From the IMG/VR virus record IMGVR_UViG_3300011114_000480, positions 1-31,224 of that record: 31,224 bases of DNA; one strand, 5' to 3'. Position numbers and translations under genes: made by a program. The notes beneath the pieces were generated by a model, which searched no databases, was not told the DNA's origin, and worked only from the letters and a program-made list of their open reading frames with translations. This DNA is from a virus. Below are positions 5,054 to 18,829 of the stretch, in pieces. How positions within the stretch are numbered: position 1 is the first letter of the stretch; each line of letters starts with the position of its first letter.

Positions 5054-5293
5054 TTATGCCTCTTTATCGACGGGGCAAGGAACTTTGACTAGGTTGCCAC
5101 AGTTAGCACATTGACCATCCAATGCCCACCAACAAATCTCGTAATCTTCAAATTGTGCAAAGATAGAAAAGACTGTACAACCACACGAACAAGCGTGGGT
5201 TGGACCAAGAGTACGTAGATCAGCAGCAGTAATGGGTGGTAGGCTATCTTTATATTTCAGCAGCCGAAGTAGACGGAACCACATTCTCTGCAC
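5054..5293 (-). CDS. Zinc-ribbon protein, 79 aa
   Basis: After a basic N-terminus (MQRMWFRLLRLLKYK) comes ITAADLRTLGPTHACSCGC and later CANCGNLVKVPCPV, giving a CxC/CxxC zinc ribbon around an acidic, aromatic middle (FEDYEICWWALDG). Start GTG at 5293 is preferred over the inner ATG at 5284 because GGAGG lies 5 bases before the GTG but 14 before the ATG. It lies upstream of the HNH gene on the same strand. Function unknown; small ribbons of this form occur in phage early regions. Confidence 0.75.
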   Translation of the reverse strand: MQRMWFRLLRLLKYKDSLPPITAADLRTLGPTHACSCGCTVFSIFAQFEDYEICWWALDGQCANCGNLVKVPCPVDKEA

Positions 5294-5429
5294 GGCTCCC
5301 TCCTTGAGGTCGGTCGCCTCTCGGCCTTCGGCCTCGGCACCGACAGGTGCCGTTTATTCGCCTTCGGCTCATATTGTAATCATCCATCAGTGTGTCGCTG
5401 GTGCGACACGCCGTAGTATCCATTACCAT
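5294..5429. promoter_or_regulatory. Divergent intergenic region with a run of hairpins
   Basis: Between the minus-strand ribbon gene and the plus-strand Ntn-hydrolase gene lie three inverted repeats: GGCC-TTC-GGCC near 5322-5332; CGGCACC-GACA-GGTGCCG at 5335-5352, followed by TTTATT; and GTGTCGC-TGGT-GCGACAC at 5392-5409. ATTGTAAT near 5373-5380 could offer a -10-like TGTAAT rightward and TACAAT leftward, but no good -35 partner is visible. Divergent transcription must start here or nearby; the exact promoters are not resolved. Confidence 0.5.
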
Positions 5430-6002
5430 ATGACTGTGACCACATTAGTAGCGATAGAACTAGAAGATAGAGCAGTTCTAGCAGCAGACTCTCAGATTAC
5501 TGAAGATAACCTACGAACTATTAGCACTGCCACGCCTAAGATTATTCACGTCGGTAAGTATCTACTAGGTCTTGTCGGTGATGCTAGGCCAGGAGATATC
5601 CTTGCCTATAACTGGACTCCACCTGCATATAAAGGTGCAGATCCCATCCAGTGGATGGGTAAGAAAGTTATGCCGTCGATACTCACGGCGTTCAAAGAGA
5701 ATGGATATGACCCATATGAAGCGTCGAAAGATAAAGACTCAGGATTCGACTACATTGTCGCGTTTGATGGGAATGTATTCCATATCGCGACGGACTTATC
5801 TTTCATCAAATCTGATCACAAGATTTATGGAATCGGTAGTGGCGGCGCTTATGCTCTTGGTTATCTTTATGACCGTCTGGGTCGTCTCACTATTGGTAAT
5901 GTAGAACAACACGCCGAGAAGTCTGTTCAGATTGCGTCGATGCTTGACGTGAATACTTGTCCACCAATACAGTTGGTAACTCAAATGAGGGAGTTATCGT
6001 GA
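5430..6002 (+). CDS. HslV/20S-proteasome beta-like Ntn hydrolase, 190 aa
   Basis: The N-terminus MTVTTLVAIELEDRAVLAAD aligns with the mature start of HslV and proteasome beta subunits. Taking Thr4 as Thr1 puts Asp at position 17 and Lys at about 34, matching the Thr/Asp/Lys catalytic set, with a propeptide of only three residues. GIGSGGAYALGYL matches the HslV GSGG.YA region. The expected activity is a threonine peptidase, perhaps oligomeric. No HslU-like ATPase is seen in the window. The reading frame is open upstream, but this ATG is the only one giving the family N-terminus. It lacks a Shine-Dalgarno sequence; a leaderless or hairpin-controlled start is possible. Confidence 0.82.
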   Translation: MTVTTLVAIELEDRAVLAADSQITEDNLRTISTATPKIIHVGKYLLGLVGDARPGDILAYNWTPPAYKGADPIQWMGKKVMPSILTAFKENGYDPYEASKDKDSGFDYIVAFDGNVFHIATDLSFIKSDHKIYGIGSGGAYALGYLYDRLGRLTIGNVEQHAEKSVQIASMLDVNTCPPIQLVTQMRELS

Positions 6003-10479: not shown

Positions 10480-10612
10480 GAAGTATTCGTGGTACAAGGC
10501 ATACCAACGCCGCAAAAAAATTGCTAGAAACAAACGTGAGAAGGCTGACCGATACGTAGATGAGATGAATAAGAGAGCCAATGACAAATCAACTACATCC
10601 AATACTCGATGA
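10472..10612 (+). CDS. Basic micro-protein, 46 aa
   Basis: The ATG at 10472 overlaps the Nmad1-like gene by 8 bases, and the frame ends 32 bases inside the sigma-like gene. The product, starting MTEKYSWYKAYQRRKKIARN, is a highly basic helix, possibly nucleic-acid or ribosome binding. No close family recognised. Support is the tight tiling that otherwise leaves an unexplained 101-base gap in a packed operon. Confidence 0.5.
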   Translation: MTEKYSWYKAYQRRKKIARNKREKADRYVDEMNKRANDKSTTSNTR

Positions 10613-11216
10613 CCTCGTTCCCTCTGTGGTGACTACTATTCACCGCAGGTTCAGGGCATACACCGAACGTGGTGACCTCTTACAAGAGGCGTGGGCTTTT
10701 GTCCTCACCCGTGCTGAACATTTCAATGAGGTCCTCTCTGATGAGAACGAGGTTCAGCGTAAGTGGAATGAGAAGAAAGTAGCGTGGCAGATACGCAGAA
10801 CACTAGAGCGTTATGCCAGAAAAGAAAAGGCTAGTAAGTCTGGCTATCATCTCAACGATGAGGCGTACTACGACACAGTTACTATTGCCCAACTTCTACC
10901 CTTTGTAATCAAAAGTTTTATTAGTGATACTGCTTTAGAGCAGAGTCAGATCCTTGTCAATGATGGTACTCCTCGTAAACCTAGCGCCCCTGCTGAAGGT
11001 GGCAACCTGCTGGCTATGCTGGTAGATATCAAGAAGGCTTACGAGAAACTAGATAAACAAGATCAAGATATCCTGCGCCTGAGATACCACGACAACCTGA
11101 CTCTCCAACTCATTTCTGAATACTTAGAGTGTGCTATCTCTACTGCTGATCGTAGATGTACCCAAGCCCTACGCAAACTACAAAACAATATCGGAGGCGA
11201 TTCACCTTGGCAATAG
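10581..11216 (+). CDS. Sigma-70-like transcription factor, 211 aa
   Basis: The N-terminal half carries a region-2-like helix RGDLLQEAWAFVLTRAEHF. The C-terminal half has a region-4-like module, KLDKQDQDILRLRYHDNLTLQLISEYL followed by AISTADRRCTQALRKL, the helix-turn-helix that reads -35 elements. Spacing resembles small ECF-type sigma factors of phages. Expected role: redirecting host RNA polymerase to phage promoters, perhaps together with the WhiB protein at 7495. The start ATG has AAGAGAG upstream. Region 2 is poorly conserved, so a sigma-like regulator rather than a true sigma factor is possible. Confidence 0.75.
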   Translation: MTNQLHPILDDLVPSVVTTIHRRFRAYTERGDLLQEAWAFVLTRAEHFNEVLSDENEVQRKWNEKKVAWQIRRTLERYARKEKASKSGYHLNDEAYYDTVTIAQLLPFVIKSFISDTALEQSQILVNDGTPRKPSAPAEGGNLLAMLVDIKKAYEKLDKQDQDILRLRYHDNLTLQLISEYLECAISTADRRCTQALRKLQNNIGGDSPWQ

Positions 11217-16200: not shown

Positions 16201-16226
16201 ACTTATCCTTTCGAACAGTTGTTCGA
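16201..16226 (-). promoter_or_regulatory. Leader element of the leftward operon
   Basis: GAAAGGATAAGT (minus strand, 16201-16212) directly precedes the first gene and abuts an inverted repeat with 7-base arms TCGAACA / TGTTCGA (16211-16226, spacer GT). The arrangement is the same as at 12209-12238, although the arm sequences differ. Confidence 0.55.
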
Positions 16227-16700
16227 TTTGCTTGTGATCGGCGGTTGCCGATGAGAGAAAAATACCAGAAAAGACAGGATAGGCAAGGCTTATCTAACCT
16301 TTTTTGCGGTTATGTCTGGTCAAACCTTTTGGGCAGTTTTGAGGCAGTTCCGCAAGGATCGGGGGAGAAAGAGGTCTAAACCTTTAGTAGAGGTTGAGGG
16401 TTGAAGATTAGTTGAAAGTTCAACCAATTTGGCGAAAGATCGCAAGGCGAGAGAGATCGCGCCGTGAATTATTAAGAAACGGATCAGAGAATTATTAAGG
16501 GGCAGGGGGCGCAAAATCCTGCCGTTGGTGGTATCGCCCCTGCTCACCCCTATCGGGTATCGCTTACGGGGCTTTTGCCTTCAGAAAAGCCAGCCAACAG
16601 ATAACACAGACCCCCCGTTGATAAACTTAGGCGCAGGGTAGTCTATAGACCACAACTAAATATCTCGACTAAAGCGATCTATTTGTCCATATTTATACCC

Positions 16701-16729
16701 CTATTATCGTGACGTTCGTCACATAATAG
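16701..16729. promoter_or_regulatory. Large dyad, likely operator
   Basis: A near-perfect 29-base inverted repeat: outer arms CTATTAT and ATAATAG, inner arms GTGACG and CGTCAC around TT, broken only by one bulged C at 16708. It lies beside the leftward -10-like TATAAA, so a protein bound here could control leftward and perhaps rightward initiation. The size fits a dimeric regulator site. Confidence 0.6.
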
Positions 16730-16876
16730 AGAAATCACCTATTTTTTCTGCCTTATATATAGTAGGGAGCGAATGCGGGACAGCGCTAGCATTCGCGACC
16801 GTAGAGGGCGCTTCGCTTGGTGCTACGCGCCCGATACCATAACCTACTTACCCCCTCGCTCCTAAGGTCGCTTCGG

Positions 16877-16920
16877 GGTGCTAAAGCACCACGTGTGGTG
16901 CGTGGCACCACTTTTAGTGG
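16877..16920 (+). promoter_or_regulatory. Chain of four mutually exclusive hairpins before the terminase
   Basis: A: GGTGCT-AA-AGCACC (16877-16890). B: GCACCAC-GT-GTGGTGC (16886-16901). C: GTGGTGC-GTG-GCACCAC (16895-16911). D: CCACT-TTT-AGTGG (16908-16920). Each arm is shared with the next hairpin, so A+C or B+D can form but not all. They end about 35 bases before the terminase ATG, placing them in its 5' leader. Resembles an attenuator or riboswitch-like expression platform; no ligand class is recognised. Confidence 0.6.
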
Positions 16921-16954
16921 GGTGTATTGTATCCATTCCACAATCTAAGGAATT

Positions 16955-18829
16955 ATGTCAGCCAACCATAAAAACGTACAAGAAGCAGATAGAGCCAAGA
17001 AGGTAATCCTCCAATCTATTGCTGAAGGCTTGACCATAGAGCAGGCTTGTAAGGTGGCTGGTAAATCCATCAAAGCCTATGAGTACTATCGTAGATCTGA
17101 TCCAGTATTCAAATCCCTAGCAGATAGAACCAGACTTGGTTCCATAGACAAGACCTTTGCAGATACCACAGCCTTAGAACTAGACTTTGTTACCTGGCGT
17201 AAGAAGTACCTCAAAAGTGAGACTTTCGCCCACCAGAAGAATTTTATAGATGTCATAGAAGGTCGTGAACCAGGATGGTTCCACCCCTCTATGAAGTATG
17301 AAAAGGGTACCAACGACAATCGTATCCTGATCAACATTCCACCCAACCACGCCAAGTCCATCACAATCACGGTGGATTATGTCACCTACAAGATTGTCAA
17401 TAACCCGAACTTTAGAGTTCTCATAGTTTCCCAAACCCAGCGTTTAGCGGCTGACTTCCTTTATGCTATCAAGCAGCGACTGACGCATCCAATGTACGAA
17501 GAACTACAGCAGGCATATGCCGCTGGGGTTGGGTTCAATACTAAGACTGCTTCCTGGCAGGCCACCCGTGTCACCTTCGGTGATGAACTACGGGAGTCAT
17601 CTGAGAAGGACCCTAACCTAGAAGCCGTAGGTATCGGCGGTCAGATTTACGGTAAGCGTGCAGATATGATCATCATAGATGACGCAGTGACGCTATCCAA
17701 CGCAAATGACTTTGAACGACAGATCAAGTGGCTCACCCAAGATGTACGCTCCCGTCTCAACCCGACAGGTAAACTTATTGTAGTAGGTACCCGCGTATCA
17801 GCCGTAGACCTCTATAAAGAACTACGGTCCCCAGACCGTTACCCTGGTGGCTTAGTCCCTTGGACCTATCTAGCGATGCCAGCCCTACTTGAAGCACACG
17901 AGGAACCTGATAAGTGGGTTACCCTCTGGCCTTTCTCAGACCAGCCCTTTGATGGACAACCAGAAGATCAGAAGACAGAAGAAGGTCTATGGCCCCGCTG
18001 GAATGGACGTAACCTTTTCAACGAGCGTCAGGCTATGGACGCATCTACGTGGGCGCTGATTTATCAGCAGCAAGATATTTCTGATGATGCAATCTTTGAT
18101 CCTGTCTGTGTGAAAGGCTCTATCGATGGAATGCGAAAAGCAGGTCGATTGGTGCCTGGCAGTCCAGGTCATCCCAAAGACCTCAACGGTTTCAGTTTTG
18201 TTTGTGGACTGGACCCAGCAATGGTCGGAGACACAGCGGCAGTATGTTATGCGGTTGATCGGAACTCTCATAAGCGCTACATTGTGGACGCTATCAAGAT
18301 TACGCGTCCTACGCCTGCACAAATCAGACAACTCATTACCGATTGGACTAACGTATATGCACCATCGGAATGGGTCGTGGAGCGTAATGCCTTTCAATCT
18401 TTTCTCACGCAAGATGAGGGAATTAGGCAGTTCCTCGCTTCCAAAGGAACTATCCTAAGAGAGCACCATACTGGTAATAACAAGTGGGATGCAGGCTTTG
18501 GTGTGGCATCTATGTCCACCTTGTTTGGAACCAAGCAACCTGATGGAAAGCATCACAGAGATAATCTGATTCACCTTCCATCTGACCAGACAGAAAATAT
18601 CAAGTCGCTCATTGAGCAGTTGATTACCTGGTCGCCTACGACCAAAGGCAAGACCGATATGGTGATGGCCTTGTGGTTCTGTGAAATCAAAGTACGTGAA
18701 TGGCTCAACCAAGGTATTCACACAACGCACCATATGAAGAATCCATTTTTGTCCCGCTATGAGCGTGGCAAGAGAACAGTTATCAACATTGATAATTTAC
18801 TAGCCGAACAGGAAAGGCAGTTCATCTAA
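16955..18829 (+). CDS. terL: Terminase large subunit, 624 aa
   Basis: Walker A-like IPPNHAKS at residues 128-135, Walker B MIIIDD at 238-243 and the nuclease-domain start CGLDPAMVGDT (Asp420) identify the DNA-packaging motor ATPase/nuclease. The N-terminal 60 residues (IAEGLTIEQACKVAGKSIKAYEYYRRSD) look like a helix-turn-helix of small-terminase type, so DNA recognition may be partly fused to this protein; no separate small terminase gene is seen. AAGG precedes the ATG at 16955. It opens the rightward head operon and is coupled to the next gene (TAATG). Confidence 0.95.
   Translation: MSANHKNVQEADRAKKVILQSIAEGLTIEQACKVAGKSIKAYEYYRRSDPVFKSLADRTRLGSIDKTFADTTALELDFVTWRKKYLKSETFAHQKNFIDVIEGREPGWFHPSMKYEKGTNDNRILINIPPNHAKSITITVDYVTYKIVNNPNFRVLIVSQTQRLAADFLYAIKQRLTHPMYEELQQAYAAGVGFNTKTASWQATRVTFGDELRESSEKDPNLEAVGIGGQIYGKRADMIIIDDAVTLSNANDFERQIKWLTQDVRSRLNPTGKLIVVGTRVSAVDLYKELRSPDRYPGGLVPWTYLAMPALLEAHEEPDKWVTLWPFSDQPFDGQPEDQKTEEGLWPRWNGRNLFNERQAMDASTWALIYQQQDISDDAIFDPVCVKGSIDGMRKAGRLVPGSPGHPKDLNGFSFVCGLDPAMVGDTAAVCYAVDRNSHKRYIVDAIKITRPTPAQIRQLITDWTNVYAPSEWVVERNAFQSFLTQDEGIRQFLASKGTILREHHTGNNKWDAGFGVASMSTLFGTKQPDGKHHRDNLIHLPSDQTENIKSLIEQLITWSPTTKGKTDMVMALWFCEIKVREWLNQGIHTTHHMKNPFLSRYERGKRTVINIDNLLAEQERQFI

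Follow-up and report, generated by a model that had tools for sequence, protein, structure and literature searches.

What do the overlapping inverted repeats just ahead of the terminase gene of an uncultured phage contribute to its biology? The repeats lie in a single IMG/VR virus record of 31,224 bp (IMGVR_UViG_3300011114_000480), hereafter the window, and form four hairpins, termed A to D from 5' to 3', whose neighbours share arms in series. The original prediction had derived from these letters a two-state RNA switch, with either A and C or B and D formed at one time, built in the manner of an attenuator or riboswitch. The analysis below leads elsewhere: as judged from its relatives, what had been seen is the 3' end of a larger, conserved leader of the late operon.

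Genomic context and likely host

Besides the large terminase gene (terL), the window encodes a portal, a major head protein, a DnaB-type helicase, a primase, an exonuclease and a sigma factor with region 4 (Table 1). Short genes run leftward from ~16.0 kb and late genes rightward from terL at 16955, the late operon comprising ~14 kb within the contig; because these two gene sets flank it, the stretch 16210-16954 represents a divergent non-coding region. We found no separate gene for a small terminase subunit between leader and terL. The window TerL shares 46% identity with the TerL of phages E7 and F5, which were isolated on 'Ca. Planktophila' LanE-43, and 43% with its counterpart in Streptomyces Beephvirinae, which points to a freshwater actinobacterium as the likely host. 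Two side observations concern the proteins: the product of 5232-6002 weakly matches a proteasome subunit (PF00227, E 5e-6), and the terminase N-terminus (16955-17160) contains, judged by eye, a helix-turn-helix-like stretch.

Table 1. Features of the window discussed in the text
Feature	Position	Strand	Details
Sigma factor, phage-encoded	10581-11216		with region 4
CRP/GlxR-like dyad CGTGACGTTCGTCACA	16708-16723	.	~50 bp upstream of promoter; one mismatch to TGTGA-N6-TCACA
Promoter-proximal inverted repeat AGAAAT...ATTTTTTCT	16730-16749	.	GGGAAAT...ATTTCC in relatives; alignment read by eye
Promoter-like block CTGCCTTATATATAGTA	16748-16764	+	-10-like TATATAGTA; exact copy unique in window
5' hairpin H1	16765-16800	+	GG-GA-GCGAATGC ... 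GCATTCGC-GA-CC, tandem GA internal loop
Hairpin H2	16806-16832	+	GGGCGC ... GCGCCC
H3 region	16847-16876	+	CTTACCCCC plus hairpin after it
Arms of the repeats, first part			GGTGCT 16877-16882; AGCACC 16885-16890; GCACCAC 16886-16892; GTGGTGC 16895-16901
Arms of the repeats, second part			GCACCAC 16905-16911; CCACT 16908-16912; AGTGG 16916-16920
Hairpin A (H4)	16877-16890	+	5 bp GGTGC/GCACC, loop UAAA
Hairpin C (H5)	16895-16911	+	GTGGTGC-GUG-GCACCAC, abuts short U run
Conserved 3' block TTTTAGTGGGGTGTATTGTATC	16912-16933	+	profile of 137 leaders selected on TTTAGT
RBS TAAGGA and terL ATG	16946-16957	+	
Terminase large subunit, terL	16955-18829	+	phrog_38, E 2.5e-65; opens rightward late block

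Folding of the repeats

All arms of the four repeats are located where they had been reported, and the repeat region ends 34 nt upstream of the terL ATG, which agrees with the ~35 bases given before. As originally drawn, hairpins A and B have loops of just 2 nt and are therefore possible only as 5 bp and 6 bp, respectively, so that the sharing of arms stands and the full length of these two stems does not. Nor did folding produce the two near-equal structures that had been expected, as A+C was computed at -18.9 kcal/mol and B+D at -14.4 kcal/mol, a gap of 4.5 kcal/mol; it is instead a third, nested fold, pairing the 5' arm of A with the 3' arm of C and enclosing B, that rivals A+C (-18.3 kcal/mol). 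In the pair-probability ensemble the nested/B fold is dominant and D remains below 0.05. The overall fold stability of 16850-16960 is mildly unusual (z -1.72), 14 of 200 shuffles being equally stable. Arms are shared in the window, and a switch can be drawn on paper, only because A and C happen to use one word, GGTGC/GCACC; stem A of one relative, L002, is GGGGC/GCCCC and unable to pair with C.

Comparison of homologous leaders

Homologous leaders were collected by TerL similarity and by motif, and covariation was evaluated in an alignment of 21 distinct sequences, with significance assessed against 500 shuffles. In this alignment 98% of the cells of stem C are paired, with changes on both sides at 4/7 pairs (0/500 shuffles). 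Hairpin C with at least 5 bp is present in 69/137 leaders, and its arms among these 69 include GTGGTGC/GCACCAC, GCGGTGC/GCACCGC, GCGGAGC/GCTCCGC, GAGGCGC/GCGCCTC, GAGGCTC/GAGCCTC and CCTGC/GCAGG. A homologous stem at the place of A is 93.7% paired and likewise covaries (0/500 shuffles), albeit in another register: the one used by the window is shifted and nearly private, being common only to the window and L006, and the homologous register is kept elsewhere. Across the relatives compared, conservation and covariation of C and of the hairpin at the position of A are clearly beyond chance, and the earlier view that a structured RNA leader precedes the terminase is supported by these two stems.

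The other two hairpins gave a different picture. B shows no covariation and only 36% paired cells in the 21-sequence alignment, and at least 6 consecutive B-type pairs are possible in only 10/69 leaders, while D occupies near-constant columns of the homologous leaders, with neither both-side changes nor covariation. Compensatory changes are hence found for C and, in its other register, for the stem at A, and not for B or D, and the attenuator- or riboswitch-like build fails in that its mutually exclusive helices do not both covary. A switch between A+C and B+D would fit the mutual complementarity of the window arms and the dominance of B and the nested helix in the ensemble, but given these comparative results, two states 4.5 kcal/mol apart and a negligible D, we reject it on covariation and energies as highly improbable; by comparison with the relatives, it is a peculiarity of the window sequence and not a conserved feature.

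The stems are almost devoid of G-U pairs, and strand counts of G-U versus A-C, at 45 vs 41, do not tell the strands apart. The plus strand folds lower than the minus strand in 63/87 leaders, which are not independent sequences, and the z-scores of both strands are similar and so do not favour action as RNA over action as DNA. In raw MAFFT group alignments the hairpins were misaligned, and RNAalifold was unsuccessful there. Two additional pairings were considered and not adopted. In leaders without hairpin C, a long-range pairing of the AGTAC/GGTGC arm with an upstream GAG-YACYRA reached 6 pairs in 21/121 cases vs ~9 expected, with many clear failures, and a closing pair of CCCC (16851-16855) with GGGG (16919-16922) is constant on both sides and offers no covariation to judge by.

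Architecture of the leader

The repeats belong to a predicted multi-helix RNA of ~145 nt with at least five helices, of which hairpin C is the 3' end. Promoter block, hairpins and 3' block follow a nearly fixed layout, with 128-163 nt between promoter and motif in most leaders, and, as far as the collected sequences tell, well over a hundred lake phages related to the window have retained the leader ahead of their DNA-packaging and late genes. H3 reads CTTACCCC in relatives, followed by a hairpin with covarying column pairs 10-24 and 15-20. Its conserved block TTACCCCTC-N-GCTGTNGCT serves as an independent search pattern and has terL downstream in 135/138 matches, with the contig ending too early in the remaining three; hence, wherever the H3 pattern (TTACCCC...GCTGT) is followed by enough contig, terL is there every time. 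No one fold is common to all leaders, as some clades (L015, L021, L026) have rebuilt or lost the middle helices and about half of the leaders do without a strong hairpin C.

This anatomy invites two readings besides an effect on transcription. First, the stems, and H1 in particular, might protect the long late mRNA and keep the RBS region open, for which one could cite the closure of the 5' end in a GG-GA-arm/arm-GA-CC hairpin in 41/87 leaders (arms GCAAATGC, GTAAAAC, GCAAAGC and GCGAATGC) and stem letters that change under a maintained structure; such a stability or translation element is nevertheless unlikely, as it leaves the conserved 22-nt block and the conserved H3 letters unexplained, and the distance from this block to terL varies from ~20 to >500 nt across relatives. 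Second, a compact structured unit with its own promoter-like block might be a small RNA acting in trans, for instance as a polymerase or packaging RNA. It is, however, always found upstream of the terL operon in the same orientation, no robust terminator is common to all leaders, and the terminase does not belong to the phi29 ATPase type, all of which render this reading improbable.

Upstream elements

Motifs of the form GTGA-N6-WCAC, corresponding to the CRP/GlxR-like dyad (site consensus from PMC7999487), occur in 58/82 homologous leaders vs 0.17% of shuffles, and the conserved palindrome suggests that phage late genes may be under host CRP-type control. Lying upstream of the late promoter, it is present in most relatives, and Streptomyces Beephvirinae carry it twice. 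The arms of the promoter-proximal inverted repeat appear to co-vary as well, e.g. CGCGAAAT/ATTTTTCGCG in L026, as read by eye and not counted statistically. The promoter-like block, shared among relatives as CCTGCCTTATATATAGTA, is near-invariant in 87 leaders, whose selection itself used part of the block. A sigma-70 scan of the block revealed no -35 box, and bacterial genome contigs yielded no copy of the block. The phage-encoded sigma factor is a candidate reader of this unusual late promoter.

The 3' block and its linkage to terL

In relatives the 3' block follows the pattern TTTTAGTnGGG...TCTATC and is succeeded by an RBS and either terL or an inserted small gene; variants read TTTTAATCGGG or have lost the T run (L378, L391, L403). 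The seemingly invariant TTTAGT is partly a selection effect, as loci were searched by this pattern, and in terL-based sampling the strict block is missing in 48/231 loci. Small unrelated genes are inserted before terL in relatives, with the leader staying at the operon start. Such differing small genes, here Lys-rich and in many cases ending in KKKK, were seen between leader and terL in L012, L017, L037, L046, L047, L066 and L080, and in one clade (L375-L377, L379, L381, L384, L390, L405, L414, L426) a CACACACAC stretch and GGCAGGTGTAATAGATT replace hairpin C and the T run.

As the T run adjoins hairpin C without a gap and a scan flags this hairpin as terminator-like, C and UUUU might halt the bulk of late transcription after ~150 nt, with read-through only once a phage factor permits it, following the logic of lambda pR'-tR'. 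Streptomyces relatives, too, place a hairpin and then a T-rich run ahead of terL (CTTTT in several). Yet the window has just four U's, roughly every second relative has a weak GC-rich hairpin with a directly following U tract or none, and some leaders have no T run whatsoever. Moreover, the letters beyond the T run are conserved in the 137-leader profile, for which a simple terminator has no need, and the functional unit therefore does not end at the T run. A leader terminator thus seems rather unlikely.

The block might alternatively constitute, together with the hairpin, a pac or cos site for the terminase, as its length and conservation resemble those of a DNA-binding site and it adjoins a terL with no separate small terminase gene found before it. 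A DNA site would not require hairpin C to abut the block at fixed spacing, as it does in about half of the leaders, and of the 86 contig 5' ends near terL, none lay between block and terL or in the 29 nt preceding the block; one was inside terL and most were spread 30-530 nt upstream, with differing sequences. From these positions a cos site at the block is rejected, and a packaging site in general is quite unlikely, somewhat more so than a stability element. Contig breakpoints of relatives cluster ~380-430 nt upstream of the block (e.g. L218, L279, L280, L308) in a variable region with repeated, DnaA-box-like TTATCCACA words, which is possibly a replication origin of these relatives; DnaA-box-like words were not found in the window.

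A proposed cis-acting late leader

We tentatively favour, at somewhat less than even confidence, that the late operon begins with a conserved, structured 5' leader RNA which has the repeats in its 3' part and would act in cis on the elongating polymerase; an effect of this kind on late-operon transcription is our best guess. A phage-type promoter at ~16748-16764 would be read, probably with the phage's own sigma factor and with the help of a CRP-like regulator, the transcript starting near 16765. Its first ~145 nt would fold into the helix chain H1, H2, H3, A and C, followed by the TTTTAGTnGGG...TCTATC block, the RBS and the late genes, and the leader would govern how far transcription continues into the late operon (~14 kb in this contig), in a put- or EAR-like logic and through one conserved helix set instead of alternation between A+C and B+D. 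We infer cis action on transcription because the leader lies between the promoter-like block and a long operon without ending at the U run, and because loop and linker letters are conserved as well as stems. In its favour we also counted the nearly fixed layout, the covariation of C and of the stem at A, the constant place at the operon start ahead of terL, the combination of a phage sigma factor with region 4 and a promoter without a sigma-70 -35 box, as well as the same plan in other letters in Streptomyces Beephvirinae; the clade-variable helices, the leaders without a strong C, the scarcity of G-U pairs and the similar strand z-scores were counted against it. Behind this reading, the possible rivals rank in the order leader terminator, stability or translation element, packaging site and trans-acting RNA.

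Relation to known leaders

The putL site of HK022 is located just downstream of its promoter, and put enables polymerase to pass terminators that are 10 kb or more distant (PMC9378689). Like the HK022 put RNA (polymerase-utilization, putL/putR), the leader is a structured phage RNA close downstream of a phage promoter, which here is predicted from sequence, and it would share with put its action in cis. Unlike put, which has ~70 nt, two stem-loops and a place in early operons, the leader has at least five helices over ~145 nt and is late; neither the two-stem-loop put fold nor its sequence was found in it, and no sequence relation to put was shown.

In phage lambda, the late region consists of the late promoter, a short leader with a terminator-like hairpin and then the late genes. 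This pR'-tR' arrangement, subject to Q-dependent antitermination, has the same order of elements as our locus. Our locus differs in its covarying helices and in the conservation of letters past the T run, many relatives have a weak terminator or none, and we identified no homologue of Q. Lambda Q engages RNAP at the late promoter (PMC6606751).

The terL leaders of Streptomyces Beephvirinae (WRightOn, Manuel, Immanuel3, FlowerPower) resemble the window group in their CRP-like dyads, a TATATATA promoter-like block and a long non-coding leader with a hairpin of compensated arms, a T-rich spacer and a conserved block before terL, but this block is GCCGCACGGCGTYTGAGTTGC where the window group has TTTTAGTnGGG...TCTATC. 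Rfam riboswitches and amino-acid attenuators are likewise structured leaders before coding genes; a conserved alternative pairing was not found here, and the window had 0 Rfam matches at the gathering threshold and only weak, chance-level ones at relaxed E-values, in line with the earlier impression of no known class. Within the open literature (subscription papers and preprints aside) we found no description of the leader, which is a candidate for a new structured cis leader RNA uncatalogued in Rfam.

Implications for freshwater phages

The relatives are mostly metagenomic and, at a distance, include isolates on 'Ca. Planktophila' (order 'Ca. Nanopelagicales'), abundant freshwater bacteria; for such phages, the same literature yielded no description of how late genes are switched on. 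It is conceivable, although on balance doubtful, that the leader represents a new late-leader RNA family in abundant freshwater phages, namely a put-like antitermination RNA that acts on RNA polymerase in cis outside the lambdoids, downstream of a promoter that uses the phage sigma factor and bears a host CRP-type site. Given a conserved leader RNA that is uncatalogued and coupled to a phage sigma factor and a CRP-like site, the question of late-gene activation can be put to the test, and the Streptomyces relatives, which share the leader plan, provide hosts that can be cultivated.
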